Source: a virus
IMG/VR virus record: IMGVR_UViG_3300025897_000040
Location: 1-32,807 of that record
DNA length: 32,807 bases
Reading direction: 5' to 3' (one strand)
Part shown: positions 1 to 31,837 of the stretch, in pieces
Position numbering within the stretch: the first letter of the stretch is position 1
Layout: each line of letters begins with the position of its first letter
Notes under the pieces: model-generated
Databases searched by the model: none
What the model was told of the DNA's origin: nothing
What the model saw: the letters and a program-made list of their open reading frames with translations, nothing else
Position numbers and translations under genes: made by a program

Positions 1-384
1 TTTACCGAATGCTTTTCCTGCTTCTGATATACCGAATGCACCAAGTGTCACTACAACAAATGATGTGTAGATTGTTTCTGATACCTTTAAGTCCATATCC
101 CATACTAGTGCAGTGACTAAGTCAGTCATACCAAACACTACCATTAAGAAGAAAGAAATAAACCCGATGATTGCTTTTTCATTCAAGTCATTATCATCTA
201 AAAACAAATCCATAAACTTTCGTTTAGGTGGTTCGAGACCACGTTTTGCTTTGATAGCATCTTCTTTCATCTCTTTGATGACATCTTCCTGTTCATCAAG
301 TTTCTCGATAAGTGCCATATACTTATCTAAGTCAATTTCGACCTCATTACTGGACTGGTCTTTATATTCTTTTTCGTCTGCCAT
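1..384 (-). CDS. Small two-helix membrane protein, holin-like candidate (C-terminus cut by window edge)
   Basis: Read by hand on the minus strand. The ATG is at 384, preceded by AAAGGA about 8 bases upstream, and the frame stays open for 128 codons to the left edge, so the C-terminus is missing. Residues 1-55 are acidic and lysine-rich (start MADEKEYKDQ), probably helical and cytoplasmic. Two hydrophobic segments follow, about residues 73-95 (core IIGFISFFLMVVFGM) and 103-122 (core SFVVVTLGAFGI). This charged-tail, two-helix plan fits a holin or another small inner-membrane phage protein, but I recognise no family signature, so holin is only an inference. It is the last visible gene of the leftward late unit and follows the gp51-position reading frame by 43 bases. 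The opposite-strand frame over the same bases has no coding character. Confidence 0.7.
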   Translation of the reverse strand, partial: MADEKEYKDQSSNEVEIDLDKYMALIEKLDEQEDVIKEMKEDAIKAKRGLEPPKRKFMDLFLDDNDLNEKAIIGFISFFLMVVFGMTDLVTALVWDMDLKVSETIYTSFVVVTLGAFGISEAGKAFGK

Positions 385-427: not shown

Positions 428-613
428 CTAAGACTTTCTTTTTTCCTGCCTCATCTTCTCTTCTTCTAACCAGTTGAGAAGAAGTTTTACGTAAATCTCT
501 CTCTCCCAAGGTATCATTCTGTCTAACTCTGTTAATGAATACTTGTGGTGTTGCATTAACTGAAAATTAGTATTATAATAGTTTATTAAACTCTCGTGAG
601 AAAGAGATATTAA
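428..613 (-). CDS. gp51-position peptide, probably made as a -1 frameshift extension of the gp26-like protein
   Basis: This frame opens at the T8 run ending the gp26-like gene and stops at TAG (428-430). Read by -1 slippage it adds 61 residues, giving a fusion of about 295 aa. The extension contains YYNTNFQLMQHHKYSLTEL followed by DRMIPWEREIYVKLL and a charged end. No ATG, GTG or TTG occurs in this frame between the slip site and an ATG at 556-554. Starting there would discard the NYYNTNFQL part, which looks like real coding sequence. The HxYSLTEL and PWEREIYV motifs resemble, from memory, the short peptide after gp26 in marine T4-like phages, at the position of T4 gene 51 (hub assembly). Independent initiation at 556 (42 aa) remains possible because no Shine-Dalgarno sequence decides it. 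Confidence 0.72.
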   Translation of the reverse strand, partial: LISLSHESLINYYNTNFQLMQHHKYSLTELDRMIPWEREIYVKLLLNWLEEEKMRQEKRKS

Positions 614-1314
614 AAAAAACTTTGTAACCCCTTTAGTGTTGTTTCATTTACAGCACCACAAGTGTCACACTTGTATTTAACATCCTTTGCAACTGATGGA
701 AGAGATTCAAAGAACTCATTCAACCCATCTAACTGTTCTAGTGTTAAATTCTCTACAAACTCTCTCAACTCGCTGTCAGGAATTTCACTTGTGTTATAAA
801 CACTTTCTTCATCGAAGATTGTATCAATTCCTTTCATCAATAACTCTATAAGTTTCTCGTTCTCATCTGTCATCGATTCTGCTTTTGCAAGTTCGGATGT
901 ATTAGGAAACTTAAGTGTTACACCTAGTGTTTCACTAAGCATAATCTTGGAGTCTACTTCCGAGGGTTTAACAATTTCAACACTAGTCAAGTCAACTTTC
1001 GTAGTACCTGTTCCCTCACATCCTTCTTCACCACAATAAAATGATACATCAACACTCTCACCAACCGACTTTGCACGAATATTTAAAAACAAATACTCCA
1101 AGTCATATATTGGAAGTGTCATTGTATCTACTGCACCATCGGTCACTGCATTTACTAAGTTCTTAACAGCATCTAAAATTTCGTTATTATCAGAACTCTC
1201 TTTTGCAATTAAAAGATACTTCTGTTCTTTAACAAGAAACGGTCTGAATGTTACTTCTCGACCATCACTTAATCTGCACTTAAACTTAGGTGCATTTTGG
1301 ATTGGTAATCCCAT
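610..1314 (-). CDS. gp26: gp26-like baseplate/tail assembly protein
   Basis: A 234-aa protein of the T4 gp26 type. The N-terminal part carries the family-like stretch VTFRPFLVKEQKYLLIAKES (residues 21-40), followed by an alpha-helical region. Two cysteine pairs, C94/C99 and C216/C219 (KCDTCG), could bind one zinc ion, which is an inference. T4 gp26 (208 aa) is classed as a baseplate hub assembly factor; its exact place in the mature baseplate is uncertain, and a chaperone role is plausible. The start ATG at 1314 has GGAG 8 bases upstream, inside the 16-base gap after the gp54-like gene. The gene ends in a U8 run that permits a -1 shift into the next frame. This gives a short and a long product, as in lambda G/GT tail chaperones. 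Confidence 0.8.
   Translation of the reverse strand: MGLPIQNAPKFKCRLSDGREVTFRPFLVKEQKYLLIAKESSDNNEILDAVKNLVNAVTDGAVDTMTLPIYDLEYLFLNIRAKSVGESVDVSFYCGEEGCEGTGTTKVDLTSVEIVKPSEVDSKIMLSETLGVTLKFPNTSELAKAESMTDENEKLIELLMKGIDTIFDEESVYNTSEIPDSELREFVENLTLEQLDGLNEFFESLPSVAKDVKYKCDTCGAVNETTLKGLQSFF
612..619 (-). other. U8 slippery run, candidate programmed -1 frameshift site
   Basis: The last zero-frame codons of the gp26-like gene are AGT TTT TTT TAA, so a T TTT TTT heptamer lies directly before the stop. After a -1 slip the next codons are TTA ATA TCT, and the frame stays open to 428. Both slipped codons re-pair perfectly. The zero-frame stop immediately 3' of the slip site would favour pausing. Only a weak local hairpin (CTCT pairing with AGAG) is visible downstream. 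A homopolymer length error is the main alternative. Confidence 0.65.
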
Positions 1315-2638: not shown

Positions 2639-3463
2639 TTATTTAATGTAAATTCTTAGGTTATCTGTATTAATCTCATTTATATTTGGATGAAAATCGT
2701 AAAGGGACAATAAGTCGTCTTCTTTGAGTATTGTTTTTGCTTGGATGTGAACATTACTTGTTTCATCGTCACTGAAATAGTCTTGTATGTCGGGAGAACA
2801 TTCACCTATTAGGTATGGTTTCTTACCACCAAACATATCATACACTCTCCTATTCAGATTGTAGTATTCAGGTCTATCTTCACCCACGTGGAACTCAATA
2901 ACTTTTTTATGTTCTTCATTACATATCGCAACGTGTAAGTTCAACTTCTTTTCTAAAAGTGATAAGAAGGGTGTCGACCATTCTTCAAATGATAATGCAG
3001 GTGCATCAATCATATCTTGACTATCCCAAACAATAAACTTGTGTTGCATATCTTTAAGATGAAGTAGTACTGATTCACGGAATGAGCCTGGATGTACCCA
3101 CCACTTAGGGGTTCCCTGTTTAGTATGTATGCAAGCTTGAGGTATTGAATAGAACCCATTTGTCTTTGCTTCATTGATTAAATATATAAACTTAACTGCG
3201 TGGAAGGAAAGGTTATCAGGAACATTAGACATCTTTTCTTTGAAGGTCTCTTTAGTAACTGGTTCAGTATCTAAATTGAGGAGTAACCCTTTAATATAAC
3301 TTGACCATCTTTTAGTTTGCACTAAGTCGTACTTGTTTACTGCATCATCTAGTGTTATGATTTTTGGTGGTGCGATTTTAGACATCTCTTCAAAGTCTTT
3401 TCTAAGACGAGTTATCCCCTCTTCATCTATCTCATATTCTGCTGTATTAATGTTGTATATCAT
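2639..3463 (-). CDS. Unknown 274-aa protein downstream of kdsB
   Basis: No family is recognised. The protein is soluble by appearance, with no signal peptide or membrane helix. Visible landmarks are an N-terminal helical part with RLRKDFEEMSKIAPPKIITL, a central TPKWWVHPGSFRESVLLHL segment (about residues 122-140) followed by FIVWDSQDMID, and an acidic C-terminal third with DIQDYFSDDETSN. The ATG at 3463 overlaps the end of kdsB by 17 bases and has GGAG 11 bases upstream, so it is probably co-translated with kdsB and may belong to the same envelope-sugar cassette. That is inference from context. Alternatively it is an unrelated phage gene that happens to separate the cassette from the tail genes. 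Confidence 0.7.
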   Translation of the reverse strand: MIYNINTAEYEIDEEGITRLRKDFEEMSKIAPPKIITLDDAVNKYDLVQTKRWSSYIKGLLLNLDTEPVTKETFKEKMSNVPDNLSFHAVKFIYLINEAKTNGFYSIPQACIHTKQGTPKWWVHPGSFRESVLLHLKDMQHKFIVWDSQDMIDAPALSFEEWSTPFLSLLEKKLNLHVAICNEEHKKVIEFHVGEDRPEYYNLNRRVYDMFGGKKPYLIGECSPDIQDYFSDDETSNVHIQAKTILKEDDLLSLYDFHPNINEINTDNLRIYIK

Positions 3464-4193
3464 TTAAATAATTCTCCACTGATTTTATGTCGTTAGGTGT
3501 ATCTACAGACAAACCCACATCGTTAACTTCTACCATCTTAACCTTATAACCGTTCTCTACAAATCTTAACATCTCTACCGATTCACTTCTCTCCAAATCT
3601 CTAACTGGAAGTGTAGGGAAGAGTTTTAAGAACTCTTTATCAAATGCATAAAGTCCCAATTGTTGTTTGATAGGTGTTGTATCTTTTTGATAATATGGTA
3701 TACTAAGTCGTGAATAATATAATGCATTATTGGATGAATCTGTTACTACTTTGACAACATTCTTATCGTATAATTTGTGCCACTTACCTGATTCAGATAA
3801 CTCTACATATGCATTTGTGACACTACTTAGTGTATGAGTCTCTATTAACTTATCAATTGCATCAGGGTCAATCAGGGGTTCGTCACCTTGAATGTTAACA
3901 TATACCTTTGCATCAAGTGTATCAAGTGTAAGTGCAATTCGGTCAGTTCCCGTTTTTACATCGTCATCTATCCTGATTACATTCAGGTTATTGTCATTAC
4001 AGTAGTTCTCAATTCGGTCATCATCCGTAACCACGTAGACTTCGTCTAGTTTCTTCGACATCGATGCTTGGGTATAGACTCGTTTAATCATAGGGACACC
4101 ATTAATCATTGCAAGGGGTTTACCCTCGAATCTAGTTGAACCCCAACGGGAAGGTATTAGACCGACTGTATTGATTTTGCTTTGTTCCAGCAT
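3447..4193 (-). CDS. kdsB: 3-deoxy-manno-octulosonate cytidylyltransferase (CMP-Kdo synthetase)
   Basis: KdsB couples Kdo to CTP, giving CMP-Kdo and pyrophosphate; CMP-Kdo is the activated sugar used for the lipopolysaccharide inner core in the cytoplasm. The 248-aa length matches the family. The nucleotide-binding N-terminus reads GLIPSRWGSTRFEGKPL (residues 11-27). TGTDR (81-85) matches the family SGTDR, IQGDEPLI (101-108) holds the metal-binding aspartate, and a late VDTPNDI matches the second acidic metal site. The chosen ATG at 4193 overlaps the HAD gene by 37 bases and has GAGGT just upstream. Such genes are carried by some marine T4-like phages with other sugar genes. A related sugar acid such as an amino-Kdo could be the real substrate. 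Confidence 0.92.
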   Translation of the reverse strand: MLEQSKINTVGLIPSRWGSTRFEGKPLAMINGVPMIKRVYTQASMSKKLDEVYVVTDDDRIENYCNDNNLNVIRIDDDVKTGTDRIALTLDTLDAKVYVNIQGDEPLIDPDAIDKLIETHTLSSVTNAYVELSESGKWHKLYDKNVVKVVTDSSNNALYYSRLSIPYYQKDTTPIKQQLGLYAFDKEFLKLFPTLPVRDLERSESVEMLRFVENGYKVKMVEVNDVGLSVDTPNDIKSVENYLNDIQH

Positions 4194-28315: not shown

Positions 28316-29545
28316 ATGTCTGAAGAAATTTATATAAACACTGGGACTACGATACAACAACCGTATCAAGGTCAATCTGTACGAAACGCACAAAACGCTG
28401 AGACAAGACAGACTACAGCACAAACACCTGCGAATGCACAAACACCGTTTACGTATCAAAATAGACAGCCTACTACATATAGAAACCCTGTAAATTCACA
28501 GGAACCTAATATTAGGAATGCACAGACTCCGTTTACATATCAAAGAACAGGTCGAGTACCATTTATATACACTCATAGAAGTCCGTTTACTTATCAGAGA
28601 ACTGGTCAAACTCCATTCACTTATCAACACCAAACGCAACAACCTTACATTGCAAACAGTCAACAACCAAACATAAGGAACGCTCAGTCTCCATACATTG
28701 CTAATAAACAGAGTCCCTACATTGCAAACTCTCAATATACAAACACTGTAAACCAACAGTCTCCTTATATTGCGAATGCACAACAACCGTATCCATATAT
28801 TGCTAATAAACAAAGTCCGTTTACATATAACCATAGAAGTCCATTTACTTATCAGAGAACTGGTCAAACACCGTTCACTTATAATAACCAACAGCCATAT
28901 CCGTTTATCACAACAGTACCATATACATATAACAGTACAGGAACAGCAACTGTTTATCCACTAGAACAAACTTGGTATCCTACAGGATTTACATTAAGAG
29001 ATACAGGTAATCTAAACCAAGCACAGGCTGGTAGGGCATACGTAAGGAAAGAAATACGTGCTGCAGTGGATACAGCAAATGACCGAATTATAATTGATGG
29101 TAAAACTGCAAAACACTATCTATCGACTGCTACAGTTACTGATTACGTGGACTATGTATCTCCTGTAGCTGATAGTTCATCCTTTTACATAAAATATTTT
29201 TATGAACCTGTTCCACAACCAGGCGGTGGTTCTACAACTGGTGCTATTATCCAAAGTTCACCCTGTAATAGTACAACACAAGACCCTTCAGATGATGGTT
29301 ATAACAATAATACTTATTATACAATTCCTGCATCAACTAATTACATATCTTTAATTTGGAGAGCAAGTGCTGATGTGCCAGGTAATGGTGGTTCTAATAA
29401 TTGTATCCTTACAACTACGGGTAGCTCTGTGACAGTTACACTTAAAGCACTTCCGACAGGGGGTGGTGTTAATTCATATATAACAACAGCAAGTTTTGGT
29501 CAAATTGAATTGTTTTCATATGCTGGTTCTGTTGCAGAAAAATAG
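28316..29545 (+). CDS. Octapeptide-repeat virion protein A
   Basis: A 409-aa protein. From about residue 35 to 205 it consists of eight-residue units with the approximate form x-Q/R-S/T/Q-P-Y/F-I/T-A/Y-N/Q, for example KQSPYIAN, AQSPYIAN and HRSPFTYQ. Ten-residue variants such as AQQPYPYIAN and RTGQTPFTYQ are scattered among them. A block with HRSPFTYQRTGQTPFTY recurs exactly 86 residues later. Regular proline and aromatic spacing suggests an extended fibrous or beta-spiral shaft. The C-terminal half is a globular beta-type domain (TWYPTGFTLRDTGN, ending FGQIELFSYAGSVAEK). No membrane segment is present. The ATG is one base after the previous stop, with no clear ribosome site, so it is probably coupled. 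A structural or adhesin role is inferred from fibre-type neighbours. Confidence 0.78.
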   Translation: MSEEIYINTGTTIQQPYQGQSVRNAQNAETRQTTAQTPANAQTPFTYQNRQPTTYRNPVNSQEPNIRNAQTPFTYQRTGRVPFIYTHRSPFTYQRTGQTPFTYQHQTQQPYIANSQQPNIRNAQSPYIANKQSPYIANSQYTNTVNQQSPYIANAQQPYPYIANKQSPFTYNHRSPFTYQRTGQTPFTYNNQQPYPFITTVPYTYNSTGTATVYPLEQTWYPTGFTLRDTGNLNQAQAGRAYVRKEIRAAVDTANDRIIIDGKTAKHYLSTATVTDYVDYVSPVADSSSFYIKYFYEPVPQPGGGSTTGAIIQSSPCNSTTQDPSDDGYNNNTYYTIPASTNYISLIWRASADVPGNGGSNNCILTTTGSSVTVTLKALPTGGGVNSYITTASFGQIELFSYAGSVAEK

Positions 29546-29554
29546 GGAGATGAT

Positions 29555-30334
29555 ATGGCAGAATTAACAAGTCTACAACAACCGTACCCTTATATATCAA
29601 CGGGTCAACAACCTGCTTCAACACAAGGTAGAACACCTTATATTGCAAATGCTCAGCAACCATATCCGTATATTGCTAATGCTCAAGAACCAAACATAAG
29701 GAATGCAAGACAACCTGTTACATATGCTAGACAAGGTCAAACACCATTTACATATCAAAACAGACAACCTAATACATATCAAGTTCAACAACCTGCTACA
29801 TATAATGTAAGACAACCCGTTATATATCAGAATAGACAACCTTTGATATATAACTATAGGTCTCCTGCTACATATGATGCAAGAACTCCTACTCCTTATA
29901 TTGCAAATGCTCAGCAACCATATCCGTATATTGCTAATGCTCAAGCAGCAGTTCAAAGAGTAGCACAACAGACATATCCATATATTGCAAATGCAAGAAA
30001 CCCCTCTACATATAATTATAGAAGTCCTTCTGTTTATCAAAACCCTGTAAATGCTCAGACTCCTTATATTGCAAACGCTAGACAACCTTCAACATATCAA
30101 CTTACATATCAAATAAGTTATACAATGAGGTCGCCATTTACTTATCAAGTATCGTATCCGACATCTAGAACAGTCGGGCCAGTTGCAAAGGTAAAGGGAG
30201 TTTATGTAAATGATAACGGTACAATTAGAAAGGTTGACCAAGTTTATGCAAATGATAGTGGAACAGTTGAAAAGATACATCAATCAGTTCCTACTGCAAG
30301 ATTTAGTAAGAATCCTTCAAACACTCAAGTATAA
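29555..30334 (+). CDS. Octapeptide-repeat virion protein B
   Basis: A 259-aa partner of the preceding gene. Residues 5 to about 200 are made of the same units (RTPYIANA, NRQPNTYQ, VQQPATYN, VRQPVIYQ, YRSPATYD). A 52-base exact direct repeat lies inside. The C-terminus differs from protein A: VKGVYVNDNGTIRKVDQVYA then NDSGTVEKIHQ. This is a twice-repeated V-x-V-N-D-x-G-T strand-turn motif of a type seen at the ends of phage fibre and adhesin proteins. Protein B therefore looks like a shaft plus a small tip, while protein A has a larger tip. GGGAGATGAT before the ATG is a good ribosome site. No function can be assigned beyond probable virion fibre. Confidence 0.78.
   Translation: MAELTSLQQPYPYISTGQQPASTQGRTPYIANAQQPYPYIANAQEPNIRNARQPVTYARQGQTPFTYQNRQPNTYQVQQPATYNVRQPVIYQNRQPLIYNYRSPATYDARTPTPYIANAQQPYPYIANAQAAVQRVAQQTYPYIANARNPSTYNYRSPSVYQNPVNAQTPYIANARQPSTYQLTYQISYTMRSPFTYQVSYPTSRTVGPVAKVKGVYVNDNGTIRKVDQVYANDSGTVEKIHQSVPTARFSKNPSNTQV
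29636..29687 (+). repeat. 52-bp direct repeat, copy 1
   Basis: Identical to 29894-29945, a spacing of 258 bases (86 codons, in frame). It encodes two repeat units of protein B (PYIANAQQPYPYIANAQ). Exact identity at the DNA level, including third positions, suggests recent duplication or gene conversion. Confidence 0.9.
29894..29945 (+). repeat. 52-bp direct repeat, copy 2
   Basis: The second copy of 29636-29687. Recombination between the copies would delete 86 codons without breaking the frame. Confidence 0.9.
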
Positions 30335-30943: not shown

Positions 30944-31837
30944 ATGATGGGTTCGAGTGATGAGTGGTCGTCCCTACAGGAAGTAATTGTAGGAACAATA
31001 AGGGGGTTTGAAAACTATACAGCTTTTTCAGGAACCCAACACGACAATGAATTCTTACCATCCATTTATTCCGAGGTGATGGAAGGTCTACAAACATTTC
31101 AAAACCTATTAGAAAAGGAAGGTGTTACAGTCCATCGCCCTGATGGTTTTTGTTATAATGTCAGAGATTGTGCAATTGTATTGGGTGACACTATACTTGA
31201 AGTCCCAATGCAATATGAAAAGGAACAACTATATCAAAGTTCATTAACTTCAATATTTAAACAAAAGTGGTTTGATGGTATGAATTGGATATCAGCACCA
31301 AAACCAACTTGGGTAGACAATGGGTATAATGACCCTATCTTTGACGGTGCGAATATTTGTAGATTAAATGACACTTTAGTGATTGCATTAAATCACACTG
31401 CAAATGGACTTGGAAAGGATTGGTTAATACGACAGTTTCCTCATTACAATATAGAGTATACAAATCTAAATCATAACATATCTCATATCGATACAAGTAT
31501 ATCCCCTATTTCTTCCGATACAGTTCTTATAAATGCAAGTAGATATACAGAATCTACAATCCCAAACACATTTAAAGACTGGAATAAAATATGGATTGAT
31601 AAGGATGATTTAGTGGAAGAACCTTTAATGGATGGGTTAGTATCATTTGCAAGTCCTTGGATAGGTATGAATACACTTTCTCTTAATCATAATACACTAT
31701 TTGTAAATGATTGTCAAACAAAAATCATAGAAAAATTAGAACAACATAACTTCAATTGCATCCCTGTTCCACTTAAACACACTAGAGAACTTGGTGGAGG
31801 ACTACATTGTTGCACTTTAGATTTGGTTAGAGGTTAA
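30944..31837 (+). CDS. GATM-like amidinotransferase (arginine:glycine amidinotransferase family)
   Basis: A 297-aa enzyme of the amidinotransferase / arginine deiminase superfamily, most like glycine amidinotransferase, which moves the amidino group of arginine to an amine acceptor. Conserved parts are EWSSLQEVIVG (about residues 7-17), NVRDCAIVLGDTILEVPM (72-89), ISAPKPTW, FDGANICR with D134, HIDTSISPI with H181, and GGGLHCCTLDLVR with C289. D134, H181 and C289 align with the GATM triad Asp-His-Cys. The protein is shorter than human GATM (423 aa), with the N-terminal extension missing, and ends right after the catalytic loop. The acceptor amine is unknown. No ribosome site is seen before the ATG-ATG pair. 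It is a cytoplasmic auxiliary metabolic gene inside a fibre block. Confidence 0.9.
   Translation: MMGSSDEWSSLQEVIVGTIRGFENYTAFSGTQHDNEFLPSIYSEVMEGLQTFQNLLEKEGVTVHRPDGFCYNVRDCAIVLGDTILEVPMQYEKEQLYQSSLTSIFKQKWFDGMNWISAPKPTWVDNGYNDPIFDGANICRLNDTLVIALNHTANGLGKDWLIRQFPHYNIEYTNLNHNISHIDTSISPISSDTVLINASRYTESTIPNTFKDWNKIWIDKDDLVEEPLMDGLVSFASPWIGMNTLSLNHNTLFVNDCQTKIIEKLEQHNFNCIPVPLKHTRELGGGLHCCTLDLVRG

Follow-up and report, generated by a model that had tools for sequence, protein, structure and literature searches.

A probable programmed -1 frameshift in the gp26/gp51-type tail assembly chaperone gene of an uncultivated marine T4-like virus

Vladimirov and colleagues are said to have found that frameshifting is conserved in the tail assembly chaperone (TAC) genes of several T4-like groups, T4 itself using the separate genes 26 and 51. 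The slippery heptamer of phage lambda is G GGA AAG, and E. coli dnaX carries a Shine-Dalgarno (SD)-like stimulator about 10 nt 5' of a tandem slippery heptamer. In lambda, both products of G/GT bind the tape measure, and the T domain recruits the tail-tube protein (PMC5009743). TAC genes of T4-like phages have already been identified (Vladimirov, Gautam and Davidson 2022, Virology 566:9-15, doi 10.1016/j.virol.2021.11.003, as cited in PMC12846349 and PMC10885494). The first of these two papers refers to it for -1 slippery sites of poly-T type in TAC-N genes of T4-like phages, the second for T4-like phages in which a short gene stands apart from a long fusion gene. A 2016 review still gave T4 as the exception (PMC5009743), and a table elsewhere lists the T4 proteins gp26 and gp51 as chaperones of hub assembly, gp51 being absent from the final particle (PMC3004832).

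The window, that is the whole stretch of viral DNA analysed here (32,807 nt), carries a gp26-like gene in which a programmed -1 ribosomal frameshift very probably yields the long form of the tail assembly chaperone. This reading is based on the sequence, its conservation, selection on the -1 frame, homology and gene neighbourhood. A frameshifted TAC has already been published for other T4-like phages, and the locus is a well-supported further example, not a new phenomenon.

The gp26-like gene and its -1 frame

A sequence-only reading of the window had proposed that the gp26-like gene ends in AGT TTT TTT TAA and that a -1 slip on its U8 run opens 61 more codons. Its coordinates and sequence proved correct: on the minus strand the ORF finishes with CAA AGT TTT TTT TAA, and the T8 run (612-619, minus strand) is the sole run of at least eight Ts on either strand of the 32.8-kb window. 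The -1 frame, likewise confirmed, reads TTT TTT TTA ATA TCT CTT ... to a TAG and adds 61 codons (LISLSHESLINYYNTNFQLMQHHKYSLTELDRMIPWEREIYVKLLLNWLEEEKMRQEKRKS), so that gp26 and the extension would together form a fusion of about 295 aa. No usable start had been seen between the slip and position 556, and the first ATG, GTG or TTG past the slip in this frame is indeed the ATG at 556, which itself lacks a SD sequence. The features of the locus are the following:

610..1314, minus strand: gp26-like gene, short form (TAC-N), 0-frame product of 234 aa
613..619, minus strand: slippery heptamer U UUU UUU, 0-frame codons AGU UUU UUU (in-frame U UUU UUN in 101/101 relatives)
610..612, minus strand: 0-frame stop UAA, immediately 3' of the slip heptamer, read from the sequence
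629..634, minus strand: Shine-Dalgarno-like AAGGGG (codons AAA GGG GTT), putative 5' stimulator through an anti-SD duplex
428..613, minus strand: -1-frame extension, gp51-type C-terminal domain (TAC-C), 61 codons plus stop TAG
554..556, minus strand: first ATG of the -1 frame, inside the predicted first helix of the domain, without Shine-Dalgarno
Predicted peptide across the slip in the fusion product: QSFFLISLSHES

The 0-frame product matched PF12322 (E=3.4e-56) and PHROG 150 (E=2e-59), and its AlphaFold2 model had a mean pLDDT of 90.8. No solved structure in the PDB resembled this model significantly (best Z 3.1, unrelated folds); no known TAC structure appeared among the PDB profile and fold matches of gp26, and those matches were rejected as unrelated.

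Several other genes of the window were noted in passing. At 1-384 (minus strand), a 128-aa protein with hydrophobic stretches and no confident family is encoded between the chaperone gene and a tape-measure-like gene. A PF02348 cytidylyltransferase gene (3447-4193, minus strand; sugar-CMP activation, KdsB/NeuA-like) lies beside a HAD phosphatase gene (PF13419; 4157-4735, minus strand), both sitting within the structural gene block. On the plus strand, two adjoining proteins (28316-30334) contain Gln/Pro/Tyr-rich repeats (QTPFTYQ, QQPYPYIANAQ), have no Pfam match and are possibly fibre-associated, while a 297-aa protein (30944-31837) is amidinotransferase-like by eye and has no Pfam match at E<=0.01.

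Conservation of the slip site and selection on the -1 frame

We surveyed 101 loci, 100 of them distinct, which comprised 80 metagenomic viral-contig loci (gp26 32-51% identical to that of the window) and about 20 annotated phage regions from Kyanoviridae, Straboviridae, Pootjesviridae and others. An in-frame U UUU UUN was present at the end of gp26 in all 101. Among the 100 distinct loci its last base was C in 56, U in 42, G in one and A in one, and the stop lay 0 or 3 nt past the heptamer in 97/100 relatives. Elsewhere in the same genes the motif occupied 14 of 23,400 in-frame positions. The first Phe codon of the heptamer was always UUU and the codon before it always NNU, whereas at other positions T-ending codons account for only 33-73% of the codons for those amino acids. 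These features were still universal after thinning to 36 representatives with less than 45% protein identity. Across all loci, 648 ORFs of at least 100 aa were found; a near-terminal in-frame U6 was combined with at least 40 open -1 codons in 100 of them, and every one of the 100 is gp26, which speaks against a chance combination. Outside the survey, we inspected Det7 (Ackermannviridae), which has no U run (GAG ATT TTC ATT TAA) and carries a gp51-like domain in the -1 frame after gp26 (2190-2402).

The -1 frame was open well past the slip in 98/100 distinct loci, with a median of 64 codons from the slip. The sequence-only reading had suggested that a programmed -1 frameshift joins the gp26-like gene to a gp51-position peptide, and had proposed looking among relatives for a conserved U-rich slip site and a conserved -1 frame; both are conserved, and these comparisons support its suggestion.

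The -1 frame also behaves as a coding frame. Between the slip and the NF motif, pN/pS was 0.49 in the -1 frame vs 0.91 and 1.10 in the other two (n=90), and the third codon position of the -1 frame varied most. Judged by these substitution patterns, the -1 frame is the only one in which the stretch from the slip to the first ATG evolves like protein-coding sequence, as had been suspected from the look of the residues ahead of 556. The -1 peptide matched PHROG 634 ('baseplate hub assembly catalyst', E=7e-26) and the far C-terminus of PHROG 150 (E=8e-5). In a tblastn search it matched 575 phage records, the best matches starting at residue 1-2, well ahead of the first ATG. AlphaFold2 predicted a helix at residues 2-24 of the -1 domain, then a short helix and then a long one (pLDDT 89). 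Because ATG 556 lies close to where the first helix ends, a start at this codon would remove most of that helix. Matches of the 63-aa domain model in BFVD were too weak for use, and a profile match of the domain to HIV gp41 in the PDB was set aside as chance: only a short amphipathic helix matches, probably through helix composition.

These results bear on the possibility that gp51 is a separate gene translated from an internal start (ATG 556 or another), either independently or coupled to gp26 termination. Many records annotate gp51 in this manner. In Cr30, D527 and RHph_I9 an ATG overlaps the gp26 stop, with the slip heptamer retained, and judging from these sequences reinitiation may contribute alongside the frameshift. 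S-SCSM1, moreover, seems to use the gp51 domain's own ATG: in this phage (1474-1530) the slip site is kept, but extra bases 3' of it, about 11 compared with S-SM2, end the -1 frame after FFRLES and leave the gp51 domain in another frame, behind an ATG of its own. Either the phage has switched to reinitiation or its record contains an error. Against a separate gene, the position of the first start codon after the slip is scattered over the surveyed loci, from codon 3 to codon 34, and the stretch ahead of ATG 556 is under protein-level selection and makes most of a helix. No SD pairing was found upstream of ATG 556 (best duplex +0.9 kcal/mol vs -5.9 at the gp26 start), and the U UUU UUN found in every surveyed locus, and retained in Cr30, D527 and RHph_I9 too, would be left unexplained. 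In some loci (L006, L009 and L033) a -1-frame stop stands immediately 5' of the heptamer, so that entry into the -1 frame is possible there only from the heptamer onward. Neither a conserved start codon nor a conserved ribosome site for the downstream peptide, which had been named as a reason to abandon the frameshift, was found among the relatives surveyed. On the sequence and the structure model, ATG 556 is not thought to be a true start, and a separate gp51 gene appears very unlikely.

The frame could also change before translation, if RNA polymerase slipped on the T8 run and put one more U into the mRNA. In bacteria, transcription slippage is known to occur on runs of 9 A or T (PMC5009743), and the window has eight Ts, but the run is interrupted to U UUU UUC in 56/100 loci; moreover, an in-frame tandem heptamer and an SD-like element are conserved, and transcription slippage would need neither. 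We regard it as extremely unlikely.

Lastly, homopolymer runs are prone to error and T4 gp51 is itself an in-frame long form, so that gp26 and gp51 might here form an ordinary in-frame fusion gene whose frame was broken only by faulty sequencing or assembly. This idea is refuted for practical purposes, since independent contigs and divergent relatives agree: the same frame break occurs in about 100 divergent loci whose run lengths are interrupted differently, and apart from T4 gp51 itself no in-frame gp26-gp51 fusion was seen in the surveyed set. The concern that the run might really hold seven or nine Ts was checked as well. Eight Ts recur in four other metagenome contigs (L002-L005), three of them 100% identical in gp26 and the fourth, L005, 94% identical, and a miscount is therefore unlikely.

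The upstream SD-like element and the proposed mechanism

The programmed frameshift, then, remains the reading that we develop here. Points against it are the weak downstream RNA structure described below, the exceptions S-SCSM1, Cr30, D527 and RHph_I9, the missing U run of Det7, and the failure to find a solved structure like the gp26 model. An invariant GG, with mostly A and then G or A ahead of it, is found 9 nt 5' of the heptamer; in the window this element is AAGGGG. Its duplex with the anti-SD tail of 16S rRNA was -6.8 kcal/mol in the window and -6.2 on average over the loci, vs -4.9 for synonymous shuffles. At the Glu codon of the element, relatives use GAG and GAA in a ratio of 39:18, vs 605:1729 elsewhere in the genes (OR 6.2, p=4e-11; p=6e-4 after thinning to less than 45% identity), a codon bias that points to selection on the RNA. 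We infer from the sequence that the element would stimulate slippage.

RNA structure downstream of the slip was weak in the window, where the first 30-50 nt contain a hairpin (AUCUCUUUCUCACGAGAGUUU) of -4.9 kcal/mol. Across the family it was variable, with a mean z of -0.5 to -1.2 vs synonymous shuffles, and no single structure common to the relatives was evident. On these values, a 3' pseudoknot or hairpin was rejected as the stimulator.

It is quite possible, and we propose it tentatively from sequence comparison, that a conserved SD-like element about 9 nt 5' of U UUU UUY drives the frameshift without a conserved 3' structure, in a dnaX-like arrangement common to marine and several other T4-like phages and undescribed for tail assembly chaperones. 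In the literature compared, where Vladimirov et al. 2022 is represented through papers that cite it, we found no description of an SD-like element in tail assembly chaperones; the upstream stimulator may be a new detail.

We infer slippage itself, its rate, the effect of the SD-like element and the chaperone action, and would picture them as follows. Most ribosomes would translate gp26 to the UAA and release the 234-aa short form (TAC-N). A minority, possibly held by the upstream AAGGGG paired to 16S rRNA, would slip back by one base with tRNA-Phe in the P- and A-sites on UUU UUU, then read 61 more codons to make the long form of about 295 aa (TAC-NC), whose extra domain is predicted to be alpha-helical and is homologous to the C-terminal end of T4 gp51. 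If the system works like lambda gpG/gpGT, the tape-measure protein may be coated by many copies of the short form and a few of the long one, and the extra domain of the long form may recruit tail-tube subunits or the hub.

Comparison with T4, lambda and dnaX

T4 gp26 and gp51 both matched PF12322 over about 200 N-terminal residues (8.8e-64 and 3.9e-52, respectively), and by this profile evidence they are paralogues. T4 gp51 extends further, to PHROG 150 position 280 and into PHROG 634 (1.2e-23), and in a single hhalign comparison the -1 domain aligned to T4 gp51 201-244 (probability 72%, E=3.4e-5). No slip site was found near the end of T4 gene 26. T4 thus has two genes for the short and the long form where this virus has one, because gp51 holds its extra domain in frame and gene 26 has no slip site; genes 26 and 51 are separate and divergently transcribed in T4, whereas the window reaches the homologous domain only via the frameshift. 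The earlier suggestion that gp26 and gp51 are tail chaperones is consistent with T4, whose gp26 and gp51 share the PF12322 family and whose gp51 carries the extra domain in a single frame.

In marine T4-like phages, gp26/gp51 would then no longer stand for a hub component plus a distinct assembly enzyme, but for a single gene that gives a short and a long protein. The annotation of many cyanophages and pelagiphages still lists a 'baseplate hub subunit' and a 'hub assembly catalyst', gp51 being often truncated or missing. The comparison also suggests that a frameshift and a pair of genes have been exchanged for one another in evolution, T4 having the pair.

The short-plus-long plan of lambda G/GT, which the sequence-only reading had invoked, is recognizable in the short form and its predicted -1 C-terminal extension: as in gpG/gpGT, ribosomes that slip by -1 close to the 3' end of the short-form gene would add a C-terminal domain. 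Lambda G/GT lies upstream of the tape-measure gene, and a similar layout is suggested here by gene order in a sibling contig and in Caulobacter phage Cr30. In the sibling, the 94% identical L005, gp26/51 is followed by a 128-aa gene and then by a 682-aa ORF, which is tape-measure-like by position and composition only, its sole significant PHROG match being 'tail associated lysin' (5e-8); in Cr30 an annotated tail tape measure gene lies one small gene downstream. The two systems differ in the heptamer, U UUU UUU here in place of the lambda one, and in the virus, which is a T4-like myovirus with a contractile tail.

With E. coli dnaX the window shares a tandem slippery heptamer and an upstream SD-like element, whose spacing (about 9 nt) is close to that of the dnaX stimulator. 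The dnaX heptamer is A AAA AAG, however, its protein is unrelated, and it has a 3' stem-loop where the window has only weak 3' structure. The closest likeness is to the gp26/gp51-type TACs of T4-like phages, which have the same short/long plan; compared with those published, the present locus comes from an uncultivated marine virus, has the U UUU UUU-UAA version of the slip site and may add the SD-like element.
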